Below are positions 4,801-45,640 of a stretch of DNA of 56,276 bases, piece after piece (position 1 is the first letter of the stretch; every line of letters starts with the position of its first letter). The translations under genes and the position numbers were made by a program. The notes beneath the pieces are model-generated. The model made no database searches. It worked only from the letters and a program-made list of their open reading frames with translations, and had not been told where the DNA came from. This stretch comes from Eubacterium sp. (lineage in GTDB: Bacteria; Bacillota; Clostridia; Oscillospirales; Acutalibacteraceae): the NCBI GenBank assembly GCA_017450645.1, contig JAFSTE010000002.1:1-56276 (forward strand), in the 5' to 3' direction.

Positions 4801-5331
4801 ATGGATAAAAGAATTGTCAAGACCAGATTAGCGGTATTCAACGCCGTATTTGATTTGGCTACCGAAAAGGAGCTCGATAAAATCACTGTTGTCGAGCTAT
4901 GTAATCGCGCAGGCATTAACAAAAGCACATTTTACCTTCATTACAGAAGCATTGACGACTGCTTCCAGCAGTGCTTCGACTACTTCGCAGGCAGAATTCT
5001 TGATTTAAGTAAGGGCATAAATTATGTTGATATGTCCGTAGCACCCGAGGCAACCGTTGCCGCTATCCTTGATGTAGTTGAGCAGAACATTAAGTATTTT
5101 GAGCGCTTTAAAAACAGCGTAATTTACGAATCGGCTATCAAATCACTTAAGGACACTTTTATTCAGTCAATTTGTAAAAGCAATAATATTAATGTTAACG
5201 ACAATTACCATGAGGTTGCAAAGGTTACCTTCCTCGTTGGCGGATGCGCCGATGTAATTATAAGGATGATGCCTAACTTCAACCGTGAGGAAATCGAAAA
5301 AATCATGGTTAATGTTATCAAAAGAAAATAA
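4801..5331 (+). CDS. TetR/AcrR-family transcriptional regulator
   Basis: 176 residues. The N-terminal helix-turn-helix reads KITVVELCNRAGINKSTFYLHY (about residues 25-46 in two overlapping parts), typical of TetR proteins. The C-terminal two thirds is a divergent ligand domain resembling the DhaS-like C-terminal class. It is divergent from the SDR/methyltransferase/transporter run and probably represses it, with the transported or modified compound as candidate ligand. That is inference from position only. A second TetR protein of similar size is at 50808-51335. Confidence 0.85.
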   Translation: MDKRIVKTRLAVFNAVFDLATEKELDKITVVELCNRAGINKSTFYLHYRSIDDCFQQCFDYFAGRILDLSKGINYVDMSVAPEATVAAILDVVEQNIKYFERFKNSVIYESAIKSLKDTFIQSICKSNNINVNDNYHEVAKVTFLVGGCADVIIRMMPNFNREEIEKIMVNVIKRK

Positions 5332-5340
5332 GGCAAATAA

Positions 5341-5370
5341 AAAAACCGGTTCAAACGAACCGGTTTTTTT
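5341..5370. terminator. Bidirectional intrinsic terminator
   Basis: CCGGTTC (5346-5352), loop AAAC, GAACCGG (5357-5363), flanked by A-tract and T-tract so it works in both directions. It separates the converging TetR gene and the thioredoxin operon. Confidence 0.85.
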
Positions 5371-5377
5371 CTTTTTA

Positions 5378-5683
5378 TCAGCTAAGCGCTGCAACAATAT
5401 TTTCTTTTGGCGTAACGCCGATAAAGGTTTCGGCAACCTCGCCGTTTTTAATAACGAGGATTGTCGGGATTGACATAATCTCAAACCTTGCGGCAAGCTC
5501 GTCATTTTCGTCAACATCGACCTTACCTACAACGATATCGTCCATCTCCTCAGCAATTTCGTCAACAATAGGCGACATCATTTTGCAGGGTCCGCACCAA
5601 ACTGCAAAAAAGTCGATTAAACAGGTTTTTCCGGAATTCATAACCTCGGCGTCAAAATTAGCTTCGTTAATTTCTTTAATCAT
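5378..5683 (-). CDS. trxA: Thioredoxin
   Basis: 101 residues, the normal thioredoxin length. The redox motif WCGPCKMM is near residues 29-36, with the conserved cis-Pro segment MSIPTILV near 70-77. It would reduce disulfides of target proteins, here most likely the peroxidase two genes upstream. It follows the reductase gene with a 1-bp gap and ends at a bidirectional terminator. Confidence 0.93.
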   Translation of the reverse strand: MIKEINEANFDAEVMNSGKTCLIDFFAVWCGPCKMMSPIVDEIAEEMDDIVVGKVDVDENDELAARFEIMSIPTILVIKNGEVAETFIGVTPKENIVAALS

Positions 5684-5684
5684 A

Positions 5685-6557
5685 TTAATTCTCCAAACTT
5701 TTTAAATATTTTACTGCAGACAGCCCTGCTTTTGCGCCGTCGCAAACAGCTTTACTGACCTGTAAAAGTCCGCCGTTAACATCGCCGCAGGCAAAAACGG
5801 ACGGTATATTAGTTTTCATATCCTCGTCGGTCTTAATGCTGTCGCCGTCGAGCGCGACGCCGAGCTTTTTAGCAAAATCAGCTCCGCCCGCTGTTCCGAG
5901 CGCAACGAAAAGTCCGTCGATTTCAAGCTCGCTGCCGTCGTCAAAAGCTACCCTGTTCACCTTAGCTTCGCCGCGGATTGCAGCTATCTTTTTAGTGATT
6001 ACCTCGTAGCTGTCGGTTTCGGGAGCGGGGAGCGAGTCGGTAAGGATATACACCTTGTTTACAATATTTACAAGGTCGCCCGCTTCGCTGAGTGCATAAT
6101 CGCCGTTACCGAGGACTGCAACAGTTTTCTTTCTGTAAAAGAAGCCGTCGCAAATAGCGCAATAGCTGACGCCCTTGCCCTCAAACTCTGCTACGCCCTC
6201 AATATTGGGGCGTATTTTTTTATTACCCGTAGCGAGTATAAGCGTCTTACCCTCAAAAACAGCGTCTGCGGTTTTGACCTCGTAGCTGAGCGTCGCGGTC
6301 ATAGCGATATGCAGCACCTCGGCATTGATAACCTCGCAGCCGATAGCCTTAGCCTGGTTTATACCGTTTTGGTAAAGCTCCTTGCCGCCGATACCGCCCT
6401 CAAAGCCGTAGTAGTTGTCAATTTTATGCGCCTTTTCGAGCTGTGACTCGCCGTAGTACAGCACAAGCACGCTCTTGTTAGCGCGCTTTGCATACAGCGC
6501 AGCCGACACGCCCGCGGGACCCGCGCCGATAATTATAACATCATACATTTTATCCAT
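5685..6557 (-). CDS. Thioredoxin-reductase-like flavoprotein, possibly ferredoxin-linked
   Basis: 290 residues, somewhat shorter than usual NADPH thioredoxin reductases. The N-terminal FAD site is GAGPAGVSAALYA (about 12-24), the redox-active pair is CAICDGFFYR (about 132-141), and the C-terminal FAD motif is ACGDVNGGLLQ. The second dinucleotide site reads VLGNGDYALSEAGDL (about 147-161) instead of the GGGDSAxEEA pattern, and the basic HRRxxxR stretch expected for NADPH is replaced by YILTDS. These changes resemble ferredoxin-dependent flavin thioredoxin reductases of clostridia. It overlaps the peroxidase gene by 1 bp and precedes trxA. Confidence 0.85.
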   Translation of the reverse strand: MDKMYDVIIIGAGPAGVSAALYAKRANKSVLVLYYGESQLEKAHKIDNYYGFEGGIGGKELYQNGINQAKAIGCEVINAEVLHIAMTATLSYEVKTADAVFEGKTLILATGNKKIRPNIEGVAEFEGKGVSYCAICDGFFYRKKTVAVLGNGDYALSEAGDLVNIVNKVYILTDSLPAPETDSYEVITKKIAAIRGEAKVNRVAFDDGSELEIDGLFVALGTAGGADFAKKLGVALDGDSIKTDEDMKTNIPSVFACGDVNGGLLQVSKAVCDGAKAGLSAVKYLKSLEN

Positions 6558-7098: not shown

Positions 7099-8601
7099 TT
7101 ATTTTTTAGTTGTTACAGTCTTTTTAGCGCTCCATGCACTGTAATATCTTTTACCATCAATCGTCCTGTATGCACGAACGCGAACATAATATTTTTTCTT
7201 AGCCTTAAGCTTTTTAACGGTAATGCTTGTTTTGGTAGTGCTCTTTTTGGTAGCGTCTTTGAACGAAGAGCTTGTGCCGTACTGAATCTGATAACCGGTT
7301 ATCTTAGCGTCGGAGAGCTTATTGATTTTTGCAGTAAAGCTCTTTGAGCCAGCCGAAACAGACGAAAGAGTTGTAGGTGCAACATTGATTTTGAAGGTCT
7401 TTGCTGCGCTGCCCTGATACAGATTCTTAAATGTAACGGTTACCTTACCTGTGCCGGGTTTGGTGTTATTTTTATAAACAACGCTGTAATTTGCCCTGTC
7501 AATTACATTGCCCCTTGTGTCCTTAACGGTAACAACAGGCTTTTTAGCTTTGCCGTTATAGGTGTATGAGGTGTTAGAGATTGTAACACTGCCGATTGCG
7601 TAAACAACAAATTTTACACTTCTGCCGCAAAGCTTGCAGATACCCTCGGCAACGCCGTTGTTGTCAAAGCTTGCTTTTACAACAGGCTCAATACTTTCGG
7701 CATACAGGCTGTGAATATCCTGCTTAACCAAATCACGGTATGCGTTAAGACCGATAAGCGCGTCCTTGGTTGCGTAAACGGGGTCATAATCTGCTGCAAA
7801 GCTGCCGTCGTCGGGGTTATGGAAATTCATAACAAGCATCTTGTAATAATTGTATGCGTTTTCAGCATCAAGTACTGACGCAAAGCCCGCAAGTGTTAAC
7901 GCAGTTGAGTCTGTATTAGCATTGGGCGTCCATTCGGAGCCGTACACGCCCCCTTCTACTGTGTAGGTTTTAAGAACAGAGCAAGCGTCTGCAATGTATT
8001 TTGCATAGTTTGAGTTATCTGCGACACAAGCAAGAGCAGCAAGGAACATACCCGTGTTGTCAGAGCTGAAACCCCAATAGTTAACGCCGCTGCCCATAAC
8101 ATAATAGTTTTTAATAAATGCATTGGCAATCGTATTTGCAAAGCTTATGCCTGCTGCCGCTTTCATCGCAAGGCGAAAACAGTATGGGTTATCAATAACG
8201 GAAACGTTAAAGCTTTCAAAAAGCTCAACAAAATTTCTGCCGTAAAAATCGGCGGGGTCGTTACCCATTTCTCTGAGTGCGAGGATAATTGCAGCTACCT
8301 CATAAATACCTTTAATATCGCTTTCGCTGCCGGTTTTGTAAGCGTCATAGTTATTCTTTACACGCTCTGCATAATCATTTTCGTAAGCCGAGTAATCAAT
8401 ACCCGCATCAACAAGCGTGTAAAAATCGACATAGCTGATTTTTGCCATATCGCTGTTTGCAACTACATAGTCGCTTGCGCCGCTGATGATGTCCGCAAGT
8501 TCTTCCATTTCGGGAGTAGACTTTGCCTGTGCGGTGAATGTTGCGCTGATGCTCATAATAAGCATCATAAGCGCGAGGGTGAGTGATAATACTTTTTTCA
8601 T
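7099..8601 (-). CDS. Secreted alpha/alpha-toroid protein with FN3-like tail, B12-riboswitch controlled
   Basis: 500 residues. Signal peptide: MKKVLSLTLALMMLIMSISA with a cut near AQAKS. Residues about 150-300 carry the repeat style of prenyltransferase/squalene-cyclase-like toroids: an FLAALA helix, GGVYGSEW then DSTALTLAGFASV, and PDDGSFAADY then ATKDALIGLNAY. This is the pattern also found in transcobalamin/intrinsic-factor-like domains. A CxxC pair (CKLC near 320) follows, then a YNGKAKKPVVTVKD beta-sandwich and a C-terminal FN3-like module ending YYSAWSAKKTVTTKK. A cobalamin riboswitch lies directly upstream, so the protein is probably made when B12 is scarce. A role in B12 capture is inferred. 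Confidence 0.75.
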   Translation of the reverse strand: MKKVLSLTLALMMLIMSISATFTAQAKSTPEMEELADIISGASDYVVANSDMAKISYVDFYTLVDAGIDYSAYENDYAERVKNNYDAYKTGSESDIKGIYEVAAIILALREMGNDPADFYGRNFVELFESFNVSVIDNPYCFRLAMKAAAGISFANTIANAFIKNYYVMGSGVNYWGFSSDNTGMFLAALACVADNSNYAKYIADACSVLKTYTVEGGVYGSEWTPNANTDSTALTLAGFASVLDAENAYNYYKMLVMNFHNPDDGSFAADYDPVYATKDALIGLNAYRDLVKQDIHSLYAESIEPVVKASFDNNGVAEGICKLCGRSVKFVVYAIGSVTISNTSYTYNGKAKKPVVTVKDTRGNVIDRANYSVVYKNNTKPGTGKVTVTFKNLYQGSAAKTFKINVAPTTLSSVSAGSKSFTAKINKLSDAKITGYQIQYGTSSSFKDATKKSTTKTSITVKKLKAKKKYYVRVRAYRTIDGKRYYSAWSAKKTVTTKK

Positions 8602-8614
8602 TTTATACCTCCGA

Positions 8615-8644
8615 AAAATAAAAATTTCTGCCTAGGGCAGAAAA
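8615..8644 (-). terminator. Riboswitch expression-platform terminator
   Basis: On the minus strand TTCTGCC, loop CTA, GGCAGAA (8642-8626) is followed by a U-rich run (8624-8615), just before the GGAGGT ribosome site. Reading through or stopping here would decide expression of the secreted toroid gene. Its 5' arm repeats a segment inside the aptamer (8724-8732). Confidence 0.7.
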
Positions 8645-8699
8645 GGGTACGACGAAAAAACGCATTCACCCGTACTCTCCCTTGCCCAAGAGTGTGAAT

Positions 8700-8847
8700 A
8701 TAATTGCAGCTCGTCTCCCGACTTAGGGCAGAGCGTATCGCCTTCTCAGTTTCCCAATGGCAAATGATACGCCGTAACGCCAAATACGGTAATGGCTGTT
8801 GCGCAGGATTCGCACCTGCTTCCGTTAGCTGTAACCTTGCGAAAAAC
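8700..8847 (-). promoter_or_regulatory. Cobalamin riboswitch
   Basis: The minus strand carries the landmark elements in order: CGGAAGCAGGTGCGAATCC (about 8823-8805), a CAACAGCCATTACCGTA segment matching the core after it, and the B12-box-like AAGTCGGGAGACGAGCTGC (about 8724-8706). This matches the known cobalamin aptamer layout (GGAA..GGTG..AATCC..; GGAGAC). It begins right after a strong promoter and ends about 100 nt before the toroid gene, with a terminator between. Confidence 0.88.
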
Positions 8848-8876
8848 ATTATACCACAAGTGTTAGCATTGTGCAA
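8848..8876 (-). promoter_or_regulatory. Strong promoter of the riboswitch transcript
   Basis: Minus-strand TTGCAC (8871-8876), 17 bp, TATAAT (8848-8853), with an extended TGG just before the -10. The -35 abuts the stop codon of rlmH, so the toroid gene is its own transcription unit. Confidence 0.8.
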
Positions 8877-20095: not shown

Positions 20096-21115
20096 TTATT
20101 TTGTTTTAATGTATTTCTTTGCCGACCACGCGGAATAACGGGTCTTGCCGTTTATCGTTTTATACGCGCGTACACGAACATAATAGGTCTTTTTGGATTT
20201 GAGCTTTTTAACGGTTTTTGATGTGTTTTTGTAGCCCTTGACCTTAACTTTTTTGCTGTTTTTAAAGGACTTATAGGTCGAATACTGAATCTGATAACCC
20301 GCAATTCGCGTTACCTTGCTCCAGGTTACCTTAAAGCTCTTTTTGCCCTTAGTAAGCTTTTTGATTGACGGCTTACCGAGCTTTGCAACATCCGCGTACT
20401 TCTTAGCGCCGCAGACCTTACAGGTGTAGGTTTTTTTGCCCTTACTTGTAAAGGTCGGCTGAGTTGTTATCTTACCTTCGTCCCAGGTGTGGTGACCAAC
20501 CGCCTTAACGGTTACGGTCTTTTTAGAACTGCAAACCGAGCAGGTATAAGTTTTTGTACCGTTTTTAGTGCAGGTCGCGTCAACGGTTGAGGTCAGCTTG
20601 TAGTTGTGGTGAGCCGCCTCTTTAAGCGCGGTGTTGTTAGCCTTGATTTCGAGCTTATCGTAATCAGCTCCGCTGCCGGTATAGCAGAAGTAAGCAATTG
20701 CGCTGCATTCATCAAACGCGCCCTTTCCGACAGTTGTAACGCTCGAGCTTATAACAACGGACTTAAGATTAGTACATTTATAAAACGCGCAAACGCCTAT
20801 ATGCGTAACGCCGCTTTTAACTATAACCTTTTTTACTGCGTCAGAGCTGTTCCACGGCGCTCTGAAGTCGTCCGAGTTTGCTTTTTTAGCGGTACTAAGC
20901 GGAAGGATAGGCGTTTCGCGCTCGTCCTTATAGTCGTACATTGCGCCCGTGCCGCTTATGGTAAGCGTACCTGTTGAGGAATCAAATGTGTATGTTACAC
21001 TTTTGCCGCAAGAGCCGTTCTCGTCAAATGCAAACGCGTTTACAGTACCGACTGTGAGGATACCGATAAGCACTACAAGCGACACAAAAAGAGATATTAT
21101 CTTTTTAGTTTTCAT
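20096..21115 (-). CDS. Secreted BspA/LRR-like protein with Cys motifs and FN3-like tail
   Basis: 339 residues. Signal peptide (about 1-28, hydrophobic core SLFVSLVVLIGILTVG). Residues about 35-60 read YTFDSSTGTLTISGTGAMYDY, typical of BspA-like surface proteins. A short LRR_5-like section follows (AFYKCTNLKSVVISSSVTTV). Then come two CxxC modules (CSVCSSKK, CKVCGAKK) that look like repeated zinc-ribbon-type units. The C-terminal module GYQIQYSTYKSFK...YYVRVRAY...YSAWSAKK is FN3-like and shared with the proteins at 7099 and 41629. Probably a surface or matrix protein. Confidence 0.72.
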   Translation of the reverse strand: MKTKKIISLFVSLVVLIGILTVGTVNAFAFDENGSCGKSVTYTFDSSTGTLTISGTGAMYDYKDERETPILPLSTAKKANSDDFRAPWNSSDAVKKVIVKSGVTHIGVCAFYKCTNLKSVVISSSVTTVGKGAFDECSAIAYFCYTGSGADYDKLEIKANNTALKEAAHHNYKLTSTVDATCTKNGTKTYTCSVCSSKKTVTVKAVGHHTWDEGKITTQPTFTSKGKKTYTCKVCGAKKYADVAKLGKPSIKKLTKGKKSFKVTWSKVTRIAGYQIQYSTYKSFKNSKKVKVKGYKNTSKTVKKLKSKKTYYVRVRAYKTINGKTRYSAWSAKKYIKTK

Positions 21116-21183: not shown

Positions 21184-21579
21184 TTAGAGCAAGTCGGCGA
21201 GGGTTTTAGAGTTTAAAAACTCCATAATAACCTCGTTTAGCTCGTTCCACATCGGGCGCGTAAGGCAGCTTCCCGCCTTTGTGCACTCTTTTTCGCAGTC
21301 AACGCAGGCAACGGGTGCAAGCGATTTTTCGGTTAAAATAAGAATTTCGCCGACCTTGTATTCCTCAACCTCTCTGTTGAGTCGGTAGCCGCCGCTCTTT
21401 CCGCGCGCGGAGTCCACAAGTCCGCCCTTTGAGAGCTTAGAGATAATCGCTTCAAGGTACTTCATACTGATTTCCTGTCTTTCGGAAATATCCTTTAGCG
21501 AAACATATGTGCCGTCGTTGTGCTGCGCCAAATCAAGCATAATGCTAAGGGCGTAACGACCTTTAGTTGAAATCATCAT
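21184..21579 (-). CDS. Rrf2-family transcriptional regulator
   Basis: 131 residues. N-terminal winged helix MISTKGRYALSIMLDLAQ is diagnostic of Rrf2 proteins. Three or four Cys cluster in APVACVDCEKECTKAGSC (about 94-111), which in IscR/NsrR-type members bind an iron-sulfur cluster and in CymR-type members are absent. The gene overlaps the metH stop codon by 4 bp and so is the last gene of the methionine operon. Control of sulfur amino-acid genes is a fair inference. Confidence 0.88.
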   Translation of the reverse strand: MMISTKGRYALSIMLDLAQHNDGTYVSLKDISERQEISMKYLEAIISKLSKGGLVDSARGKSGGYRLNREVEEYKVGEILILTEKSLAPVACVDCEKECTKAGSCLTRPMWNELNEVIMEFLNSKTLADLL

Positions 21580-23888
21580 TTTGTATCACTTCCCTCAAAA
21601 AACTCCTGCGCTATACGCACGCTCTCCATAGCGTCCTTCGCGTAGTAATCGGCGTTAATTTCTTTAGCGTAATCGCGCGTTAAAACCGCACCGCCGACGA
21701 ACACCTTAGCGTCGGTGTTGTCGTGTATCAGCTTAATAGTTTTTTCCATATTAACAACGGTGGTCGTCATAAGCGCGGAAAGACCGACGAACTTTGCGCC
21801 GTGCCTTACCGTTTCTTCAAGCACCGTTTCGCATTTAACATCCTTGCCGAGGTCGATAACATCAAAACCGTAATTCTGAAGCAGCACCTTAACGATATTT
21901 TTGCCGATGTCGTGGATGTCGCCCTCGACGGTGGCGATAATTATTTTTTCGCCCTTTACCTGCTCGGTGCCGCTTGATACAAGATAACTCTTAATCTCGT
22001 CGAACGCCGCCTTCGCCGAGTCGGCGGACATAAGAAGCTGAGGTAAAAACAGCTTGTTTTTTTCAAATCCGTCGCCGACCTTGTCAAGCGCGGGGATAAT
22101 ATAATTATTGATAACCTCAAGCGGCGCTTCGTTCTTTAAAAGCTCTCTTGCACAAAGGGCGCTCTCGTCCTTCATACCCTTTACAATCGCGTCAAGCAGC
22201 GTAATCTTGCCCGTTTCGGCAGGCGCGGCGGACTCGGTTGCGGTAACGGAAGCGATATACTCGCTGCAGTTGTCGTCAAGTCCCGCGAGCGCGTTAAAGG
22301 CATAGTACGCGTTCATCATACTCTGCGACTTGGGGTTAATAATTCCGCCGCTGAGTCCCGCGCAAAGCGCCTGGGTGTAAAACGCGGTATTAACAGCCTC
22401 TCTGTTAGGCAGACCGAAGCTTATATTCGACACGCCGAGCACCGTATTTACGCCGAGCGTGTTCTTAACATAGTCGACTACCTTAAGCGTTTCGACGGCA
22501 TTTTGCTGATTAGTGCTTACGGTCATTGTAAGCGCGTCGATAACGATATCCTTTTTGTTTATACCGTAGCTCTCGGCGGTTTTTACCATCTTTTTTGCAA
22601 TTTCAATTCTGCTCTCGGCGTCCTCGGGAATACCGCTCTCGTCAAGGCAAAGACAAACCACAACGCCGCCGTATTTTTTAACGAGCGGAAAAATCTCGTC
22701 CATCGACTTCTGCTTTCCGTTAGCGGAGTTAATCATCGGCTTGCCGTTATAAAGGCGCATCGCCTTTTCCATAGCGACGGGGTCTGACGAGTCGAGCTGA
22801 AGCGGGGTCGGGATAACGCTTTGCAGCTTATATACGGCGTCGCAAAGCATCTGCACCTCGTCAATTTCGGGCAGTCCGACATTGACATCAAGAATATGAG
22901 CGCCCGCGTCGCGCTGGGTTATGCCCTCTTTAAGTATGTAATCAATATCGCCGTTTCTCAGCGCTTCTTTAAGCAGCTTTTTGCCCGTCGGGTTAATCCT
23001 TTCGCCGATTACGACGCTCTTTTCGCCGAGCTGAACACACTCGCTGTAGCTTGAAACGAGTGTGGTATTTTTATATTCGGGAACACTTTCGGGAATGTTC
23101 TTAGTTTTTTCAACAAGCGCCCTGATGTGCGCGGGGGTTGTACCGCAGCAGCCGCCGAGGTACGAAACGCCGAGCTTTGCAAGCTCGACCATACAGTCGG
23201 CAAACTCGTTATCGTCAACATTATAAACGGTTTTGCCGTTAACGGATTCGGGCAGTCCCGCGTTAGGGTTAACCATAATCGGGGTTGACGAAACCGCGCG
23301 AAGCTCCTCGACAAGCGGTATCATCTGCTCAGGACCGAGCCCGCAGTTAAAGCCGATTACATCGACGCCCAGACCCTCGCAAACAGCGACAGCGGTTTTT
23401 ACATCCGCGCCGGTAAGCAGCCTTTTTTTCTCGTCAAAAATCATCGAAACGAAAACGGGCAAGTTGCAGTTTTCCTTAGCTGCAAGCACAGCCGCCTTAA
23501 TCTCATAAGTGTCGCCCATTGTTTCAACAAGCACAAGGTCGGCTTCGCGTCCTGCGCGAACAACCTCGGCGTAAATATCAACGCACTCCTCGAAATCGAG
23601 GTCGCCCATAGGCTTTAGCAGCTTGCCGGTAGGACCGAGGTCGAGAGCGACCTTTTTGCCCGTTTTTTTAGCAAGCGAAACACCCGCGCGCACAAGCTCG
23701 TCGCAGTTGTCGTACTTAAGACGGTTAGCGCCGAAGGTGTTGGCGGTGATTATATCCGCGCCCGCCTCGGCGTACGCCTTATGCACCGCAAAGACGCGCT
23801 CGGGGTCTGTTATATTCAGTTGTTCGGGAAGCTCGCCTGCTTTAAGATTAAGCATCGTTCCCATTCCGCCGTCGAAGTATTTTATCAT
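21576..23888 (-). CDS. metH: B12-dependent methionine synthase lacking the activation domain
   Basis: 770 residues, against about 1,200 for E. coli MetH. Domain order: homocysteine-binding barrel (about 1-290, Zn ligands in YLGGCCGTTPAH), methyltetrahydrofolate-binding barrel (about 310-560), cap helices (about 570-650) and cobalamin-binding Rossmann domain with EGDIHDIGKN (about 663-672). The C-terminal AdoMet reactivation domain is absent and encoded separately just upstream. Start at 23888 follows TTTGGAG. A longer reading to 23984 is read through a repeat (peptide DHPSTASGPPPFSKGG) and is rejected. Confidence 0.93.
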   Translation of the reverse strand: MIKYFDGGMGTMLNLKAGELPEQLNITDPERVFAVHKAYAEAGADIITANTFGANRLKYDNCDELVRAGVSLAKKTGKKVALDLGPTGKLLKPMGDLDFEECVDIYAEVVRAGREADLVLVETMGDTYEIKAAVLAAKENCNLPVFVSMIFDEKKRLLTGADVKTAVAVCEGLGVDVIGFNCGLGPEQMIPLVEELRAVSSTPIMVNPNAGLPESVNGKTVYNVDDNEFADCMVELAKLGVSYLGGCCGTTPAHIRALVEKTKNIPESVPEYKNTTLVSSYSECVQLGEKSVVIGERINPTGKKLLKEALRNGDIDYILKEGITQRDAGAHILDVNVGLPEIDEVQMLCDAVYKLQSVIPTPLQLDSSDPVAMEKAMRLYNGKPMINSANGKQKSMDEIFPLVKKYGGVVVCLCLDESGIPEDAESRIEIAKKMVKTAESYGINKKDIVIDALTMTVSTNQQNAVETLKVVDYVKNTLGVNTVLGVSNISFGLPNREAVNTAFYTQALCAGLSGGIINPKSQSMMNAYYAFNALAGLDDNCSEYIASVTATESAAPAETGKITLLDAIVKGMKDESALCARELLKNEAPLEVINNYIIPALDKVGDGFEKNKLFLPQLLMSADSAKAAFDEIKSYLVSSGTEQVKGEKIIIATVEGDIHDIGKNIVKVLLQNYGFDVIDLGKDVKCETVLEETVRHGAKFVGLSALMTTTVVNMEKTIKLIHDNTDAKVFVGGAVLTRDYAKEINADYYAKDAMESVRIAQEFFEGSDTK

Positions 23889-23909
23889 TTCAAATCTCCA
23901 AACCTTATT

Positions 23910-24148
23910 GCCTCCCTTGCTAAAGGGAGGGGGACCGCTTGCGGTGGAGGGATGGTCGCTCGATTTAACGAATACTAAAATCACGCAATTATATTTTCAA
24001 CACCTCTTAGTAGGCATTGACCACCCCTCAGGTGCTTCGCACCAGCTCCTACAGGAGCCGTCCCTTTTGTCACCTGTGGTGACATTTCCCCACACTGTGG
24101 GGAATCACCCCTTGACAGGGGAGCCAAATCAGTTTCTCGCTTCGCTCA
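23910..24148 (+). repeat. Dispersed hairpin repeat, copy 2 (expanded)
   Basis: Begins GCCTCCCTTGCTAAAGGGAG and GGACCGCTTGCGGTGGAGGG, and ends CCCCTTGACAGGGGAGCCAA with CTCGCTTCGCTCA. Unlike copies 1 and 3 it holds extra palindromes in the middle (GGTGCTTCGCACC, CTCCTACAGGAG, TGTCACCTGTGGTGACA, TTCCCCACACTGTGGGGAA). It fills the space between the MetH activation subunit and metH, inside the operon. Its end supplies the stop codon of the activation-subunit gene. Confidence 0.87.
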
Positions 24149-24700
24149 TTCAATGCCGATAAAAGCGGTTACGCTTTTGGTCGGAAGCATTTCGTAAGTA
24201 TCGGTAAGCGTTATTCCTATGCGCTTAGTAAGCTCTAAAAGGTCGAATACCTTTTTTTGCGCGCTGATATCGAGGTCGTAGTAGCCGGGCGAAAAGCGCT
24301 GCCTCAGCTTAACCTTATGCTCGGCGATTATCGCGCTTTCAAGCTCGTCGCAGACCTCCTCAATCTTACACGCGCCCGCAGCCTGAATAGCCATAGCGAG
24401 CGCCACATCCGTTGCAGCAGCGGAGTTAATAAGCCTGTCGCACTCGGTACCGAGAGTCGCGCCGAAAATAACGACCCTTTTACAGCCGTTAAGGTTATCG
24501 GCAAGGTGCTTGCTTTTAAATGTTACGCCCGCGATATTAACGCCGTCGTCCGCAACCTCGCAGTCAAAAATGCGGTAAAGCGTTTTAGGAAAAACGCCGT
24601 CCTCTACCGCTGCCGCTGCTTTTTCGACAAGTTCGTTCACCCTTTTGTCGTCAAGGCTCGACGAGGTACGCATATAGCGTAAAATCTCCGCCTTATTCAT
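24146..24700 (-). CDS. Separate methionine-synthase activation subunit
   Basis: 184 residues. The C-terminal half has the activation-domain signature RFSPGYYDLDISAQKKVFDLL (about 141-160) and the end SVTAFIGI, matching the AdoMet-binding reactivation domain of MetH. It would remethylate cobalamin that has gone to the Cob(II) state, using AdoMet and an electron donor. It overlaps metF by 8 bp and precedes metH after a repeat. The stop codon TGA lies within the conserved end of repeat copy 2, so the native C-terminus may have been altered slightly. Confidence 0.85.
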   Translation of the reverse strand: MNKAEILRYMRTSSSLDDKRVNELVEKAAAAVEDGVFPKTLYRIFDCEVADDGVNIAGVTFKSKHLADNLNGCKRVVIFGATLGTECDRLINSAAATDVALAMAIQAAGACKIEEVCDELESAIIAEHKVKLRQRFSPGYYDLDISAQKKVFDLLELTKRIGITLTDTYEMLPTKSVTAFIGIE

Positions 24701-25559
24701 TGATAATATGCGACAGCCCGTTCATAATAGCCGACGCCACATCGGGCTTATTCATAGTGTAGATATGTATGTTATTAACCCCGTTTGCCATAAGGTCGAT
24801 AATCTGCTCGGTGGCATAGACTATTCCCGCCTGCTTCATAGACTCGGGGTTATCGCCGAAGCGCTCCATAATCCTGAAAAACTTTTTAGGTACGGAGCAG
24901 TTGGAAAGCTCTATACTCCTTTTAATCTGTACCGCATTTGTAATCGGCATAATGCCCGCAATAATCGGAACATCAATGCCCTTAATACGGCACATCTCGT
25001 AAAAATTAAGAAATTTTTCGTTATCAAAAAACATCTGCGAGGTCAGAAACGAAGCGCCGCAGTCAACCTTATATTTAAGGTGCTCTATATCCTCTATTCT
25101 GCTTTTGCTTTCGGGGTGGATTTCGGGGTAGCACGCAGCGCCTATGCAAAAATCGCCCATCGCCTTAATCTCGTTAATAAGCTGATAAGCATATTCAAAA
25201 TACTGCTTGTCGGGGAACACAAAGCCCTCAGGTATGTCGCCGCGAAGGGCAAGAATATTCTCGATATTATTATCCCTGAGCTCGCCCACAACCTCGTGAA
25301 TTTTATCGCGGGTGGAGGTAAGGCAGGTGAGGTGCGACAGCGGAGTTACACCGCTGTTTTTAATCTCGTTTGCAATCTCGGTAGTAAAGCCCGAGCGCGT
25401 GCCCGCAGCGCCGTAAGTAACGCTCATAAAAGCGGGAGATGCCCCGCTCATTTCGCGCACAACAGCCTTAGTGCTCTCGATTTTATCCCACTGCTTAGGC
25501 GGGAACACCTCGAACGAAACCGTAACCTTATTATCTTTTAAAATCTCGCTGATTTTCAT
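24693..25559 (-). CDS. metF: Methylenetetrahydrofolate reductase
   Basis: 288 residues. Makes 5-methyl-THF, the methyl donor for MetH. Seen: SFEVFPPKQWDKI (about 15-27), SVTYGAAGTRSG (about 47-58), LALRGDIPEG (about 101-110) and GIMPITN (about 197-203), all typical of bacterial MetF barrels. It leads the operon metF / activation subunit / metH / rrf2, giving a full methyl-transfer route. A consensus promoter is just upstream. Confidence 0.93.
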   Translation of the reverse strand: MKISEILKDNKVTVSFEVFPPKQWDKIESTKAVVREMSGASPAFMSVTYGAAGTRSGFTTEIANEIKNSGVTPLSHLTCLTSTRDKIHEVVGELRDNNIENILALRGDIPEGFVFPDKQYFEYAYQLINEIKAMGDFCIGAACYPEIHPESKSRIEDIEHLKYKVDCGASFLTSQMFFDNEKFLNFYEMCRIKGIDVPIIAGIMPITNAVQIKRSIELSNCSVPKKFFRIMERFGDNPESMKQAGIVYATEQIIDLMANGVNNIHIYTMNKPDVASAIMNGLSHIINE

Positions 25560-41628: not shown

Positions 41629-42777
41629 TTATTTTGTTTTAACCTTTTTCTTTGCTGACCAGGAGGAGTAGTAGGTCTTGCCGCTGTACTTGTGGTAAGC
41701 TCTTACTCTTACATAATAAGTCTTCTTTTTCTTAAGGCTTTTAATTGTCTTTGAGGTCGAGGAAGCTCCCTTAACTGTTTTCTTTTTGGAACTGCTCATA
41801 CTCTTTTTGAGCGAGTACTGAATCTGATAACCGTCGCAGTTTGTTGATTTAGCCCACTTTACATAAAATGCCTTTTTCTTAGCGGTAAGCTTAGTTATTT
41901 TTGTTTTAGTCGGGTGAGTAATAGATACAAATGTGTAGTAATAAAAGTTGTATCCGTTATTAACATAATTTTGCGTTGTCGAGCCGTTAAAGCCGTAAAG
42001 CTTAACCTTTTTGCCTTTGTCGTAAAAACTGCCGTTGTAAAACGAGCTGTACGCCTGTATGTTAACATTTTTGCTAAGGATTGTAGCCTTTTGAATACTG
42101 TGGCTTGAAAAAGCAGACGCGCCGATTGAGGCTACTGATTTAGGAATAGTAATGCTTTTTGCAGCGTGCGACAAAAACGCATCGTTATAGATATACTTAA
42201 GATTGTTGTTAAGCGTAATTGTTGAAAGCGAGGTGCAGCCCGAAAAAGCCTCTGCCTCAATATCGGTAAGCGTTGAAGGGAACACAACCTTGGTAAGTGC
42301 GGTGCAGTGGGCAAATGCGTGCGCGCCGATAGTCTTTAACCCCTTTGAGAAGTTAAGCGTTTTCAGCTTTTTCATAGTCTGGAATGCGCCTTCTTCAATC
42401 TCCTCAACGCTTGACGGAATTGTAAGGGTTGTAACATTGCTTGAGCTGCCCTGATAAAACGCGTACTCCTTAATAACCGTTACGGTTGAAGGGATAACAT
42501 ATTCCGTAATCTCGCTAAAGTTTTTTTGAAAAGCCTTTTTGTCGATAACGGTAACGGTATAGCCCTCGATTGTTTCGGGAATATACAGTACGCTTGCACC
42601 GCTGTAATGCTGTGTGTGGTCTACAATTTTTACGGTGCTGCTGTTTATAAATTCGTACTTGTAAAAATCGTCGCCGTCGTTATAGGTGTAAACCGCGTTT
42701 GCGTTAACGCTGACTCCCGCACTGAGAATACTCAGCGCCATAACAACGGACATTATTAAGCTTATTGTTTTTTTCAT
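41629..42777 (-). CDS. Secreted LRR_5/BspA-like protein with FN3-like tail
   Basis: 382 residues. Signal peptide (core LIMSVVMALSILSAGVSV, cut near NANA). Residues about 60-240 are leucine-rich repeats of the BspA type, with repeating IPSTVTVIKEYAFYQG, IPSSVEEIEEGAFQTM, FSKGLKTIGAHAFAHC and FPSTLTDIEAEAFSGC units. The C-terminal FN3-like module GYQIQYSLKKSMS...YYVRVRAYHKYSGKTYYSSWSAKKKVKTK is shared with two other proteins in the window. Likely a surface-exposed binding protein. Own promoter region and GAGAGGA ribosome site. Confidence 0.82.
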   Translation of the reverse strand: MKKTISLIMSVVMALSILSAGVSVNANAVYTYNDGDDFYKYEFINSSTVKIVDHTQHYSGASVLYIPETIEGYTVTVIDKKAFQKNFSEITEYVIPSTVTVIKEYAFYQGSSSNVTTLTIPSSVEEIEEGAFQTMKKLKTLNFSKGLKTIGAHAFAHCTALTKVVFPSTLTDIEAEAFSGCTSLSTITLNNNLKYIYNDAFLSHAAKSITIPKSVASIGASAFSSHSIQKATILSKNVNIQAYSSFYNGSFYDKGKKVKLYGFNGSTTQNYVNNGYNFYYYTFVSITHPTKTKITKLTAKKKAFYVKWAKSTNCDGYQIQYSLKKSMSSSKKKTVKGASSTSKTIKSLKKKKTYYVRVRAYHKYSGKTYYSSWSAKKKVKTK

Positions 42778-42882
42778 ATAATCTTCCTCTCATATTAAGT
42801 TACAACCATTATATCGCATTTTATAAAAAGGTGCAACAGAAAAAACCTCGCCAAAAGGCGAGGTGTAAATTTCTTTAACTTT

Positions 42883-43167
42883 TTACTGCTCTACGGGATA
42901 AACAGAAACCTTTTTTCTGCCCTTGCCCATTCTCTCGAATCTAACTGTACCGTCGATAAGAGCGAAGAGTGTATCATCCCTGCCGATACCTACATTGTTG
43001 CCGGGATGAATGTGAGTTCCTCTTTGGCGATAGAGAATGTTGCCTGCGAGAACGAACTGACCGTCAGCTCTCTTAGCGCCGAGACGCTTTGACTCGGAAT
43101 CTCTGCCGTTCTTGGTGGAACCCATACCTTTTTTATGAGCAAAAAGTTGAATATCTAACTTAAGCAT
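42883..43167 (-). CDS. rpmA: 50S ribosomal protein L27 with cleavable leader
   Basis: 94 residues. The first nine residues MLKLDIQLF precede [15 protein letters not shown], the true L27 start. This leader is the Firmicutes form removed by the protease Prp, which is encoded just upstream. L27 reaches into the peptidyl-transferase centre, so uncut leader would block function. Ribosome site GGAGGT upstream. Confidence 0.96.
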
Positions 43168-43169
43168 GG

Positions 43170-43484
43170 TTATACCTCCAAAAAAATCACTTTAATGTTG
43201 TCAGGATACTGTTTTTCAAGCTCTGTTATATGAAGCATAAGCCCGTTTAACACATCCTGCGCCCGATTCGGCGACTCTTTAATATCGAGCCTTAAATATC
43301 CGTCTGCCGCTGCGGCGTCGGCATTTAAGCCGATAACCTCGGTTACGGTGTTAGCCGCCATAAGGCAGGCACTTGACACCGCCGCACAAACAATATCCTG
43401 TCCGTGCTCGGCAGCCATTGAGTGACCCTTGCACTCAAAGCCCGAAATAATATCGCCCGTTTTGTTAAAACTAATTCTTATCAT
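43170..43484 (-). CDS. prp: Ribosomal-processing cysteine protease Prp
   Basis: 104 residues. [22 protein letters not shown] (about 17-38, in part) contains the catalytic His and Cys, spaced as in Prp. It cleaves the N-terminal leader of L27. The gene lies between rplU and rpmA as is usual in Firmicutes; it overlaps rplU by 1 bp (TAATG) and is 2 bp from rpmA. Confidence 0.93.
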
Positions 43485-43792
43485 TATGCGTTGATAGCGG
43501 TAATCTCAACCTTAGTGTAAGGCTGACGATGACCCATCTTGCGCTTTTCGTTCTTCTTTGGCTTGTAAGTAAATACAGTGATTTTCTTGCCCTTGCCGTT
43601 CTTAAGAACTTTAGCATTAACGGTAGCCTTTTCGCAATCCTTGCCTGCCTTGAAGCCGAGCTCGTCGCTTACTGCAAGAACCTGGTCAAAAGTAACTTCT
43701 GCGTCCTCGTCTACACCGAGCTTTTCGATATAGAGAACATCGCCCTTTTCAACCTTGTACTGCTTACCGCCTGTCTGAATAACTGCGTACAT
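43484..43792 (-). CDS. rplU: 50S ribosomal protein L21
   Basis: 102 residues, full length. Starts [21 protein letters not shown], and ends with [19 protein letters not shown], the conserved L21 C-terminal block. Binds 23S rRNA in the large subunit. It leads the rplU-prp-rpmA operon, and a structured leader follows its promoter. Confidence 0.96.
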
Positions 43793-43872
43793 AGTATCTG
43801 TTACCTTTCATAAGACTCGCTACGATAGGTGTAGCGCGGTTCGCGCTCTCTTGAATACCCATAATATGCGGC
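43793..43872 (-). promoter_or_regulatory. Probable L21 (rplU) leader RNA
   Basis: The minus-strand 5' UTR of about 80 nt contains GCCGCATATTATGGGTATTC, a GAGCGCGAACCGCGCT hairpin and CCTATCGTAGCGAGTCTTAT. Position and these blocks fit the known Firmicutes L21 leader, thought to bind L21. Exact ends are not fixed. Confidence 0.55.
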
Positions 43873-43878
43873 TTAATT

Positions 43879-43906
43879 ATTATATCAAAAAAATATAGAT
43901 TGTCAA
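43879..43906 (-). promoter_or_regulatory. Promoter of rplU-prp-rpmA
   Basis: Minus-strand TTGACA (43901-43906), 16 bp, TATAAT (43879-43884). Consensus elements with slightly short spacing. Confidence 0.75.
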
Positions 43907-43975
43907 GCGAAAAAACGCAATTTCTATATTTACCGTTATGATTGGTTTTAAAGCACAATAGATTGTGGTGTAACC

Positions 43976-44005
43976 GTAGGGGCGGATACCGTCCGCCCGC
44001 GGAGC
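43976..44005 (+). repeat. Left copy of a 30-bp inverted repeat
   Basis: Begins GTAGGGGCGGATACC and ends CCGCCCGCGGAGC. It matches the reverse complement of 45097-45126 at 28 of 30 positions. The two enclose the XRE/zinc-ribbon pair. The GGGCGGA/TCCGCCC core is itself a palindrome. Confidence 0.75.
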
Positions 44006-44028
44006 ATACGAGGCTTACATAGTTAAAA

Positions 44029-44244
44029 CTACTTATTAATTTCCTTATTATTAGTTCTTCCCAAAATATAGTCCGTCGAAACCTTGTAGAAGTCTGCAAG
44101 CGTTATAAGATATTCAAGAGGAATATTTTGAAATCCTCTTTCGTATCTTGAATACACTGTTTGGCGAATACCGAGCAATTCGGCAATATCAGCCTGCTTC
44201 AGGTCTTTATCTTCTCTTAAATCCCGTAATCTTTGAAAATACAT
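44029..44244 (-). CDS. Small XRE-family repressor, module 2
   Basis: 71 residues, one HTH_3 domain: LRDLREDKDLKQADIAELLG and IRQTVYSRYERGFQNIPLEY, followed by LITLADFYKVSTDYILGRTN. Start at 44244 is chosen because AGGAG lies eight bases upstream; a GTG at 44253 would abut that site. It is divergent from a zinc-ribbon membrane protein, with paired ACTTATAAGT palindromes in between. It parallels module 1 at 29765-30749. Confidence 0.87.
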   Translation of the reverse strand: MYFQRLRDLREDKDLKQADIAELLGIRQTVYSRYERGFQNIPLEYLITLADFYKVSTDYILGRTNNKEINK

Positions 44245-44260
44245 AGTAGCCACTCCTAAT

Positions 44261-44325
44261 ACTTATAAGTACTATTGACAGTACCACAGTTTTGTGTTAT
44301 ACTGCTTTTTATAGTACTTATAAGT
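44261..44325. promoter_or_regulatory. Promoter flanked by two identical palindromes, module 2
   Basis: TTGACA (44275-44280), 17 bp, TATACT (44298-44303) reads toward the zinc-ribbon gene. The 10-bp perfect palindrome ACTTATAAGT occurs at 44261-44270 and 44316-44325, with TACTTATAAGT shared by both copies. Centres are 55 bp apart. Expected operator of the adjacent XRE protein, possibly through DNA looping or dual occupancy. Confidence 0.7.
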
Positions 44326-44349
44326 TCTATGACAAGGAGGTAATTTTTT

Positions 44350-44988
44350 ATGTATTGTAATAATTGCGGTAAAGCAATAGACGACAATTCTATGTACTGT
44401 GGAATATGCGGCGCGCCGGTTTCAGGCAAAACTCAAGTACAAGCGCAAGCACAAACGCAAACATCGACTTCAAGCGATGTGAATCCTGTTTATCATAACA
44501 ACTCTGAATATAACAATAATCCGTCAAATAACGAAAAGGCAGAGAAAAACAGAAACATCTTAATTGACAGAATAAAGAAAATCCGCACTTTCTCAACGAT
44601 AGCAGCGGTTATGTCAATCATATCGCAAGTTGGCGGAGGCATATTGAGCTTAATTTTTATTAATAACGAGGGCGACGATGCTGCACCTACAATGCTTGGA
44701 TTGTTTGTTTTATTATTAGTAATAAATGTTCCGTCATTCATTTATTTTACAAGTATTTCTCGTAAGACCAACAAACTCTTAAACGTGATTGAAATGAACT
44801 ACAACCGACAGCAAATATTTAATTATTTCAGCACTGTCAAAAAATCAGCAGCAATAATTATTATGCTGATAAATATTGTGTTTTTACCCGGTTTTATTAC
44901 ACTTCCTTTAGGTATTTTTCAAGTTATTACTTGTATATCAATTCTGAATTTGCGAAACTTTTTCCAAACCAACCAGCAGTTTATATAG
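44350..44988 (+). CDS. Zinc-ribbon membrane protein, unknown function
   Basis: 212 residues. The N-terminus MYCNNCGKAIDDNSMYCGIC holds a CxxC-x(11)-CxxC zinc ribbon. A Gln/Thr/Asn-rich linker follows (about 30-60). Three or four membrane helices fill the rest (FSTIAAVMSIISQVGGGIL, LGLFVLLLVINVPSFIYF, AAIIIMLINIVFLPGFITL and after). Zinc-ribbon membrane proteins of this style are common and uncharacterised. Divergent from an XRE regulator. AAGGAGG ribosome site upstream. Confidence 0.72.
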   Translation: MYCNNCGKAIDDNSMYCGICGAPVSGKTQVQAQAQTQTSTSSDVNPVYHNNSEYNNNPSNNEKAEKNRNILIDRIKKIRTFSTIAAVMSIISQVGGGILSLIFINNEGDDAAPTMLGLFVLLLVINVPSFIYFTSISRKTNKLLNVIEMNYNRQQIFNYFSTVKKSAAIIIMLINIVFLPGFITLPLGIFQVITCISILNLRNFFQTNQQFI

Positions 44989-45033
44989 TAATAATGCTAA
45001 ACGGGCGTGACAATCGGTTGTCACCTGTCTATG

Positions 45034-45076
45034 CAAAACACAATGAAGGGCGCACTGCCCTTCATTGTGTTTTGTT
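45034..45076 (+). terminator. Long-stem terminator after module 2
   Basis: An 18-bp perfect stem: CAAAACACAATGAAGGGC (45034-45051), loop GCACT, and its complement (45057-45074), then TTTTGG. A second hairpin GAGCGATGT/ACATCGCTC follows at about 45081-45100. The stem is unusually long for a terminator. Confidence 0.8.
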
Positions 45077-45096
45077 TTGGGAGCGATGTGAACATC

Positions 45097-45126
45097 GCTC
45101 CGCGGGCGGATGATATCCGCCCCTAC
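45097..45126 (-). repeat. Right copy of a 30-bp inverted repeat
   Basis: GCTCCGCGGGCGGAT at its start and ATCCGCCCCTAC at its end form the inverted partner of 43976-44005 with two mismatches. It lies between the module-2 terminator and the rpsO promoter. Confidence 0.75.
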
Positions 45127-45147
45127 TTATAATTTATTAAAAAATGC

Positions 45148-45176
45148 TTTACAAACAAATATTAATATGCTATAAT
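45148..45176 (+). promoter_or_regulatory. Promoter of rpsO
   Basis: TTTACA (45148-45153), 17 bp, TATAAT (45171-45176). Confidence 0.75.
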
Positions 45177-45270
45177 ACACCCGCTGTAAACGATTTACTC
45201 GGATACGGGGGTCACCTTCCCGCACCTGTGTTAATCGCAAAGGCAAATATTAAGAAAGGTGGAAACGATA
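45177..45270 (+). promoter_or_regulatory. Possible S15-binding leader of rpsO
   Basis: A 5' UTR of about 85 nt includes GGATACGGGGGTCACCTTCC and a CCCGCACCTGTG segment, able to form at least one stem with the GGG run. S15 controls its own mRNA through varied leaders in many bacteria. The identification rests on position and length only. Confidence 0.35.
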
Positions 45271-45591
45271 ATGACCCAGGAAAAAAAGCAGGAAATTATC
45301 AAGGAGTATGCTATTCACGAGGGTGATACAGGCTCAGCTCAGGTACAGGTTGCTGTTTTAACTTACAGAATTAACGAGCTTACCGAGCACCTTAAGGTTC
45401 ATAAGAAGGACCATCACTCACGCCGCGGACTCCTTAAGATGGTAGGTCACAGAAGAAACTTACTTGCTTACATCTACAAAAACGATGTACAGGAATACCG
45501 TGACCTTATCGCAAAGCTTGGCATCCGTAACACAATCGAGCGTAACACTGCAGACGCTGAGATTGAGGTTAAAGAAGAGGCTGAGGACTAA
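45271..45591 (+). CDS. rpsO: 30S ribosomal protein S15 with acidic C-terminal extension
   Basis: 106 residues against the usual 89. The body is standard: [40 protein letters not shown] and [11 protein letters not shown]. After GIR a tail of about 20 residues rich in Glu, Asp and Ala ([15 protein letters not shown]) is added. Start at 45271 follows AAAGGTGG; a GTG at 45259 lies inside that site. S15 binds 16S rRNA h20-h22 early in assembly. Ends at a terminator-like hairpin. Confidence 0.95.
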
Positions 45592-45599
45592 TCAAACCG

Positions 45600-45640
45600 G
45601 CAGACGGTACTATTTTGTACCGTCTGCTTAAATGTTTTTT
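45600..45640 (+). terminator. Terminator-like hairpin after rpsO
   Basis: GCAGACGGTAC (45600-45610), loop TATTTT, GTACCGTCTGC (45617-45627), followed by TTAAATGTTTTTT. The T run is displaced by about 7 nt, so ending may be partial, leaving some read-through to pnp. Confidence 0.7.

Follow-up and report, generated by a model that had tools for sequence, protein, structure and literature searches.

We analysed a window of 56,276 nucleotides (nt) of contig JAFSTE010000002.1 from Eubacterium sp. (GCA_017450645.1); the genome searched comprises 2.08 Mb and is 87% complete. On its minus strand, at 7099-8601, the window carries a gene for a secreted protein of 500 amino acids with a predicted alpha/alpha toroid, and a cobalamin riboswitch precedes it. 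Based on the leader, the predicted fold and the gene content of this genome and its relatives, we propose that the gene encodes the riboswitch-controlled toroid (alpha) half of a split, transcobalamin-like B12 capture system that feeds an energy-coupling factor (ECF) importer, a reading to which we give a probability of about 0.72. A sequence-only reading of the window had placed a sigma-A promoter, a cobalamin aptamer and a terminator before this one gene, and had taken its product for a B12-capture protein whose FN3 half departs from the DUF4430-type design. Within the window, one gene is indeed controlled, but the whole system probably occupies three loci.

The leader and its counterparts in relatives

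The leader contains the following elements.

8848-8875, minus strand: candidate promoter, TGCACA-16-TATAAT with extended -10 (10 of 12 consensus matches)
8691-8873, minus strand: cobalamin riboswitch aptamer RF00174 (Rfam covariance model)
8674-8693, minus strand: P13-like hairpin, ACUCUU-GGGCAAGG-GAGAGU, one strand of which could partly pair with the 5′ arm of the terminator (antiterminator)
8625-8643, minus strand: intrinsic terminator, UUUCUGCC-CUA-GGCAGAAA, with an 8-bp stem and a U-rich tail (hairpin search, folding energies)
8608-8612, minus strand: ribosome binding site GGAGG (sequence)

The aptamer was confirmed by its Rfam family. RF00174 matches 8873-8691(-) over the full model (1-189) with 48.7 bits (gathering score 31.5; E 3.4e-9), and this is the sole match in the whole genome searched. 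The terminator also stood, its hairpin (8643-8625, minus strand) being followed by a 12-nt U-rich stretch, then GGAGG and then the ATG. The promoter fared less clearly. It has 10 of 12 consensus matches, and TTGACA/TATAAT-like boxes precede the aptamer in several relatives in the leader alignment, but promoter-like sites are not enriched in the leader region over shuffled sequences (6 against a mean of 4.2, standard deviation 2.0). Terminator-like sites were not clearly enriched either (4 against a mean of 2.3, standard deviation 1.8). From this promoter the transcript would start near 8841. The -10 box (TATAAT, 8853-8848) falls within the 5′ end of the Rfam match, so the transcript probably lacks roughly the first 32 nt of this match. 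A closer 5′ strand, CAGCU, pairs better with AGCUG at the 3′ end of the aptamer (-8.4 versus -6.5 kcal/mol).

An antiterminator duplex of 11 pairs with the 5′ arm of the terminator has a calculated energy of -13.3 kcal/mol, compared with -10.0 kcal/mol for the terminator hairpin by itself. For the whole platform, the terminator state was lowest at -24.3 kcal/mol and the best state with the terminator 3′ arm unpaired reached -22.2 kcal/mol, both being ligand-free energies. These values suggest a platform with two near-equal states, as a switch needs, and the layout would be that of an OFF switch by termination. At low intracellular cobalamin, the leader strand GGGCAAGGGAGAG would pair with the terminator arm and the gene would be read. 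With cobalamin on the aptamer, this strand would be kept in the P13-like hairpin, the terminator would form and expression would stop. A motif resembling CUUUUGGGCAA recurs in the leaders of several relatives. It is the covariance model and the toroid relatives that carry the case for the riboswitch.

Relatives were collected in two ways. A single-sequence search with the toroid in 300 genomes of the same family gave 8 matches, our own included, and a toroid profile gave 44 matches at E <= 1e-6 in 398 genomes of that family, 12 of them below 1e-40. We analysed 28 toroid loci (L numbers below; G and C denote genomes and contigs), one per genome: the window, the 7 others from the single-sequence search and the next 20 from the profile search. 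A further 16 genomes with toroid matches lie outside this sample. Five loci (L087, L091, L093, L095 and L099) were absent from the first open reading frame (ORF) listing with the profile, and all were found once the speed filters of HMMER were off (E 3.5e-18 to 2.7e-11).

RF00174 reaches its gathering score in 17 of the 28 loci (window, L027, L028, L029, L080, L081, L082, L086, L088-L094, L096 and L099), L093 and L094 barely exceeding it. Each of the 17 riboswitches precedes the toroid ORF or a DUF4430-toroid pair on the same strand, in L091 with an open frame of 91 residues in between. Among the strong relatives, our own included, 7 of 12 have the riboswitch. Four of the strong loci that lack it (L026, L030, L032 and L083) have a contig end inside the operon or within about 230 bases of its start. 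A relaxed Rfam search of five riboswitch-negative loci gave a single weak cobalamin match (L097, 25.7 bits).

Two further riboswitches were seen in genomes of the same genus. In L116, a cobalamin riboswitch (45.8 bits) occupies 5349-5524(-). It stands a short way upstream of a DUF4430 gene at 5575-6255(+) but on the opposite strand, and over some 5 kb behind the riboswitch the listed ORFs are on the plus strand. L118, from a genome without a toroid match, has one at 4868-5079(-) (88.5 bits), some kilobases ahead of a DUF4430 match in a minus-strand open frame of 2615 residues; a DUF4430-EcfT pair there is oppositely oriented.

The toroid and its basic tail

The protein was divided as follows.

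7099-8601, minus strand: 500-residue secreted protein with ATG start, comprising signal peptide, alpha/alpha toroid, MBG-like domain and FN3 tail (ORF, Pfam, structure prediction)
8524-8601, minus strand: signal peptide, about residues 1-26, with probable cleavage after AQA (sequence, hydropathy)
7702-8514, minus strand: alpha/alpha toroid, residues 30-300, putative corrinoid-binding alpha-domain (structure prediction, fold search, profile)
7378-7590, minus strand: MBG_3-like domain, residues 338-408 (Pfam below cut-off; model confidence, pLDDT, below 50 at residues 296-404)
7102-7380, minus strand: basic FN3 domain, residues 408-500, end of a generic C-terminal tail (Pfam, genome recurrence, charge)

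Secretion, as proposed in the sequence-only reading, is indicated by a hydrophobic N-terminus, judged from sequence and hydropathy, and the toroid suspected in that reading is present in the predicted structure (pLDDT 93.8; predicted template modelling score, pTM, 0.91). Foldseek with the whole 500-residue model gave mostly FN3 proteins among the matches listed, and the toroid was then run alone. Transcobalamin was among the nearest folds, making up 8 of the 50 matches listed (E 1.1e-3 to 5.4e-3, query TM-score 0.52-0.58, identity 13-16%). By sequence, the toroid belongs to the squalene-cyclase superfamily (A3 profile, E 5.6e-11). Residues 47-337 are covered by no Pfam or NCBIfam family, NCBIfam and PHROGs searches with the window protein gave no match, and toroid profile A2 found no credible match among PDB sequences. 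A beta-grasp domain was not found in the same chain, PF14478 (DUF4430) giving no Pfam match within the window protein at E up to 1. The toroid has a net charge of -21. The linker between toroid and tail holds a CxxC pair (CKLC, residues 322-325, window 7627-7638, minus strand), and the linker of the L027 protein also has CxxC pairs.

The toroid could instead be an enzyme, such as a terpene cyclase, a lyase or a glycosidase-like protein, whose expression merely responds to B12. Class II cyclases carry the acid motif D-x-D-D; at the aligned position it occurs in none of the 25 rows of alignment A3. The genomic context of the toroid loci is also that of B12 uptake, and we regard an enzymatic role as very improbable.

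The Lys-rich, FN3-like tail proposed in the sequence-only reading was likewise found. Pfam fn3 (PF00041) matches residues 408-481 (E 1.2e-8, 35.4 bits, over the gathering cut-off of 25), MBG_3 (PF18887) matches residues 338-408 (E 4e-4, 20.8 bits, under the gathering cut-off of 25), and residues 336-500 have a net charge of +30. At E up to 0.001, the region from about residue 336 to 500 recurs in 44 further stretches of the genome, although some of these cover the MBG part only, some the FN3 part only, and some start before residue 336 (earliest 257); the top-scoring one has 52% identity, and the matched stretches carry net charges of +24 to +47. In all 11 matching loci that were fetched, the tail closes an ORF, 0-5 residues from the C-terminus, and 10 of the 11 tail-bearing ORFs begin within the locus with what by eye is a hydrophobic, signal-like N-terminus. 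The ORF of the eleventh (L012) extends past the 5′ end of the locus, and a second ORF there has a partial tail 47 residues before its end.

Across the 28 toroid loci, the FN3 tail stands at the same place in four (window, L027, L081 and L083). In others, among them L028-L032, L080 and L082, it is replaced by what by eye is a sortase-like end, (S/T)P(A/K)TG-hydrophobic-basic. These observations suggest that the tail is a generic, exchangeable surface-attachment module that would lie outside B12 binding. We had also considered the FN3 tail as a substitute for a missing sortase and dropped this, as sortase matches were obtained in 9 of 9 genomes.

With this in mind, we considered whether the toroid-FN3 protein binds B12 alone, its MBG-FN3 half having replaced the beta-domain, which is close to what the sequence-only reading had in view. 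MBG and FN3 are beta folds beside the toroid, and no DUF4430 gene adjoins the window toroid; in the same-genus genome G384, too, a toroid-FN3 protein follows a riboswitch and has no DUF4430 next to it. Against this, the tail recurs at the end of other secreted proteins, a DUF4430 gene is kept elsewhere in genomes G000, G384 and G071, and L083 combines a toroid and FN3 tail with an adjoining DUF4430. We consider such a replacement unlikely and do not retain the tail as an alternative to the DUF4430-type design.

Two more window proteins with signal-like N-termini end in the basic FN3 tail (20096-21115 and 41629-42777, both minus strand). Elsewhere in the genome, L045 (6253-9625, contig C1) and L046 (8216-10113, contig C32) encode small secreted proteins that are mostly MBG-FN3 tail; membrane proteins resembling ECF S components, with long N-terminal extensions, lie near the tail protein of L045 and directly adjoin that of L046. 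In L088 and L089, downstream of a cobalamin riboswitch, the protein has two toroids and a dockerin end (by Pfam in L088, by eye in L089).

A proposed split B12 uptake system

The split arrangement that we favour draws on the genes found around related toroids. These were searched with a DUF4430 profile built from 5 sequences and an EcfT profile built from 2, some of them taken from the same 28 loci. Of the 28 loci, 19 have a separate DUF4430 ORF, which in L031 is on the opposite strand, and 10 have EcfT. In L026, the toroid gene is followed by DUF4430, EcfT, EcfAA' and then a cut S component. G071 is also split, with riboswitch, toroid and FN3 at one site and DUF4430-EcfT-EcfAA'-S at another. 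All 12 strong-toroid genomes have DUF4430. The 729-residue toroid protein of G071 (L015/L027) is, by eye, somewhat DUF4430-like at about residues 30-255, ahead of its toroid, and this region gave no match to Pfam or to the DUF4430 profile.

Our own genome has one DUF4430 protein (270 residues with an N-terminal hydrophobic stretch; contig C3, 15000-15812), which is 43% identical over 123 residues to the toroid-adjacent DUF4430 of L018/L028. The same contig carries an EcfT-EcfAA'-S set at 42665-45614. Compared with L026, its EcfT is 30% identical (2e-23), its EcfAA' 33% (4e-80) and its S component 35% over 66 residues (3e-8). When the genome's own contigs were scanned with the toroid sequence, 56 stretches fitted a pattern and none was confirmed.

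A FecCD (BtuC-type) permease was not found in the genome, the control genomes being positive in 13 of 14 cases, and none of the 9 genomes searched for CobS yielded it (controls positive in 10 of 14). MetH is the only clear protein of the genome with a B12-binding domain. A second, weak B12-binding match on contig C13 was rejected, its sequence being by eye that of a MiaB/MtaB-type tRNA methylthiotransferase and not of a B12 enzyme. The relevant genes of the window are as follows.

21576-23984, minus strand: MetH core (homocysteine methyltransferase, pterin and B12-binding domains), likely user of imported B12
24146-24700, minus strand: MetH activation-domain-like protein, a separate ORF of 184 residues
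24693-25559, minus strand: methylenetetrahydrofolate reductase (MTHFR), which would supply methyl-tetrahydrofolate to MetH

MetH is split here (21576-25559, minus strand): its core stops after the B12-binding domain, and the activation-domain-like ORF is next to MTHFR. This gene content is consistent with a B12 auxotroph, an organism that seems unable to make the vitamin and employs it in methionine synthesis. Taken with related toroids that follow cobalamin riboswitches and have DUF4430 and ECF genes next to them, it upholds the B12-scavenging context first proposed.

The captured ligand could also be a corrinoid other than B12, either cobinamide or another cobamide. The gut contains a diversity of corrinoids, and several cobamides can be sensed by cobalamin riboswitches. 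Finding no CobS leaves room for complete cobamides, but the usual route for completing cobinamide and other unfinished corrinoids would be closed. We judge a ligand other than B12 to be improbable.

In the split system that we prefer, the secreted protein would most likely be held at the cell wall by its basic MBG-FN3 tail, like other secreted proteins here. The toroid and the separately encoded, N-terminally anchored DUF4430 beta-grasp protein would jointly bind the corrinoid and hand it to the ECF importer encoded on the same contig as DUF4430, which would then supply MetH. A stronger form is that the wall-held toroid and the membrane-anchored beta-grasp protein, encoded apart, close only around B12 and pass it to a dedicated ECF importer. 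The riboswitch would then throttle the toroid half only, so that the toroid sets capture capacity. We offer this form tentatively, as a possibility that we would sooner doubt than assume.

Several observations weigh against the split system. In the Foldseek search, other alpha/alpha toroids score equal to transcobalamin, and the toroid had no match at E <= 0.001. Transcobalamin was not among the 50 VIA-align matches shown for the whole model or for the toroid alone, nor was it listed when toroid profiles A2 (E up to 10) and A3 (E up to 1) were compared with PDB sequences. A profile of full-length DUF4430 proteins found no credible PDB match and no transcobalamin, although low-complexity linkers may dominate this profile. 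Neither leader nor aptamer has a lower folding energy than shuffled sequences (z -1.0 and -0.3). The genome's own DUF4430 and ECF genes show no linkage to the toroid, and their loci have no cobalamin riboswitch at the gathering score. Such a riboswitch is also missing from 11 of the 28 toroid loci, including L031, where none was found despite a long contig and a relaxed search. Further, DUF4430 is also present in 16 of 20 hand-picked family genomes without a toroid-profile match; its presence alone therefore does not discriminate, and the idea that it is confined to toroid genomes was dropped. Finally, absences in the genome are provisional because it is only 87% complete.

Comparison with known B12 carriers and importers

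The closest precedent is the work of Burroughs et al. (2007; PMC1796856). Its available text describes bacterial proteins, secreted or anchored and some with Ig-fold domains, in which an alpha/alpha toroid is joined to a transcobalamin-type SLBB/beta-grasp domain. Their genes lie in operons with CbiO/CbiQ, their hosts usually lack key B12 biosynthesis enzymes, and B12 scavenging was proposed. The window protein shares with them secretion, the alpha/alpha toroid, Ig-fold or surface-anchor extensions and the proposed role. Unlike them, as far as that text describes them, its toroid has no beta-grasp domain, has its own riboswitch and bears a generic MBG-FN3 tail, with DUF4430 and ECF genes at other loci. 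The word riboswitch is absent from the main text of that paper. A literature search, with most subscription journals outside its coverage, did not return a riboswitch-controlled bacterial toroid/DUF4430 system among the papers matched.

The predicted toroid has an overall alpha/alpha fold similar to that of animal transcobalamin, intrinsic factor and haptocorrin. According to the available text of PMC1796856, the animal carriers have both domains in one chain, whereas the toroid here is separate. The surface B12-binding lipoproteins BtuG and BtuH of Bacteroidetes, in the parts of PMC6143338 and PMC8941943 available, likewise capture B12 at the surface under riboswitch control, before it reaches a membrane transporter. 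BtuG is a beta-propeller, unlike the toroid here, and the available text of PMC8941943 mentions neither transcobalamin nor intrinsic factor. ECF-CbrT (PMC5997447, in part) is likewise an ECF-type B12 uptake system of Gram-positive bacteria without BtuCDF; the passages on it describe no toroid or DUF4430 partner, and the S component here has a putative B12 specificity.

Taken together, B12 scavenging by toroid and beta-grasp domains is already known as a prediction from 2007 (PMC1796856). The present work adds a link to the riboswitch, places the two halves apart and points to a generic second half of the protein. The riboswitches at toroid loci provide independent evidence for a toroid role in B12 uptake, beyond the text of the 2007 prediction, which becomes directly testable with two small secreted proteins. 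Our analysis also suggests that a transcobalamin-like carrier can have its alpha and beta halves encoded by two genes, each at a locus of its own.
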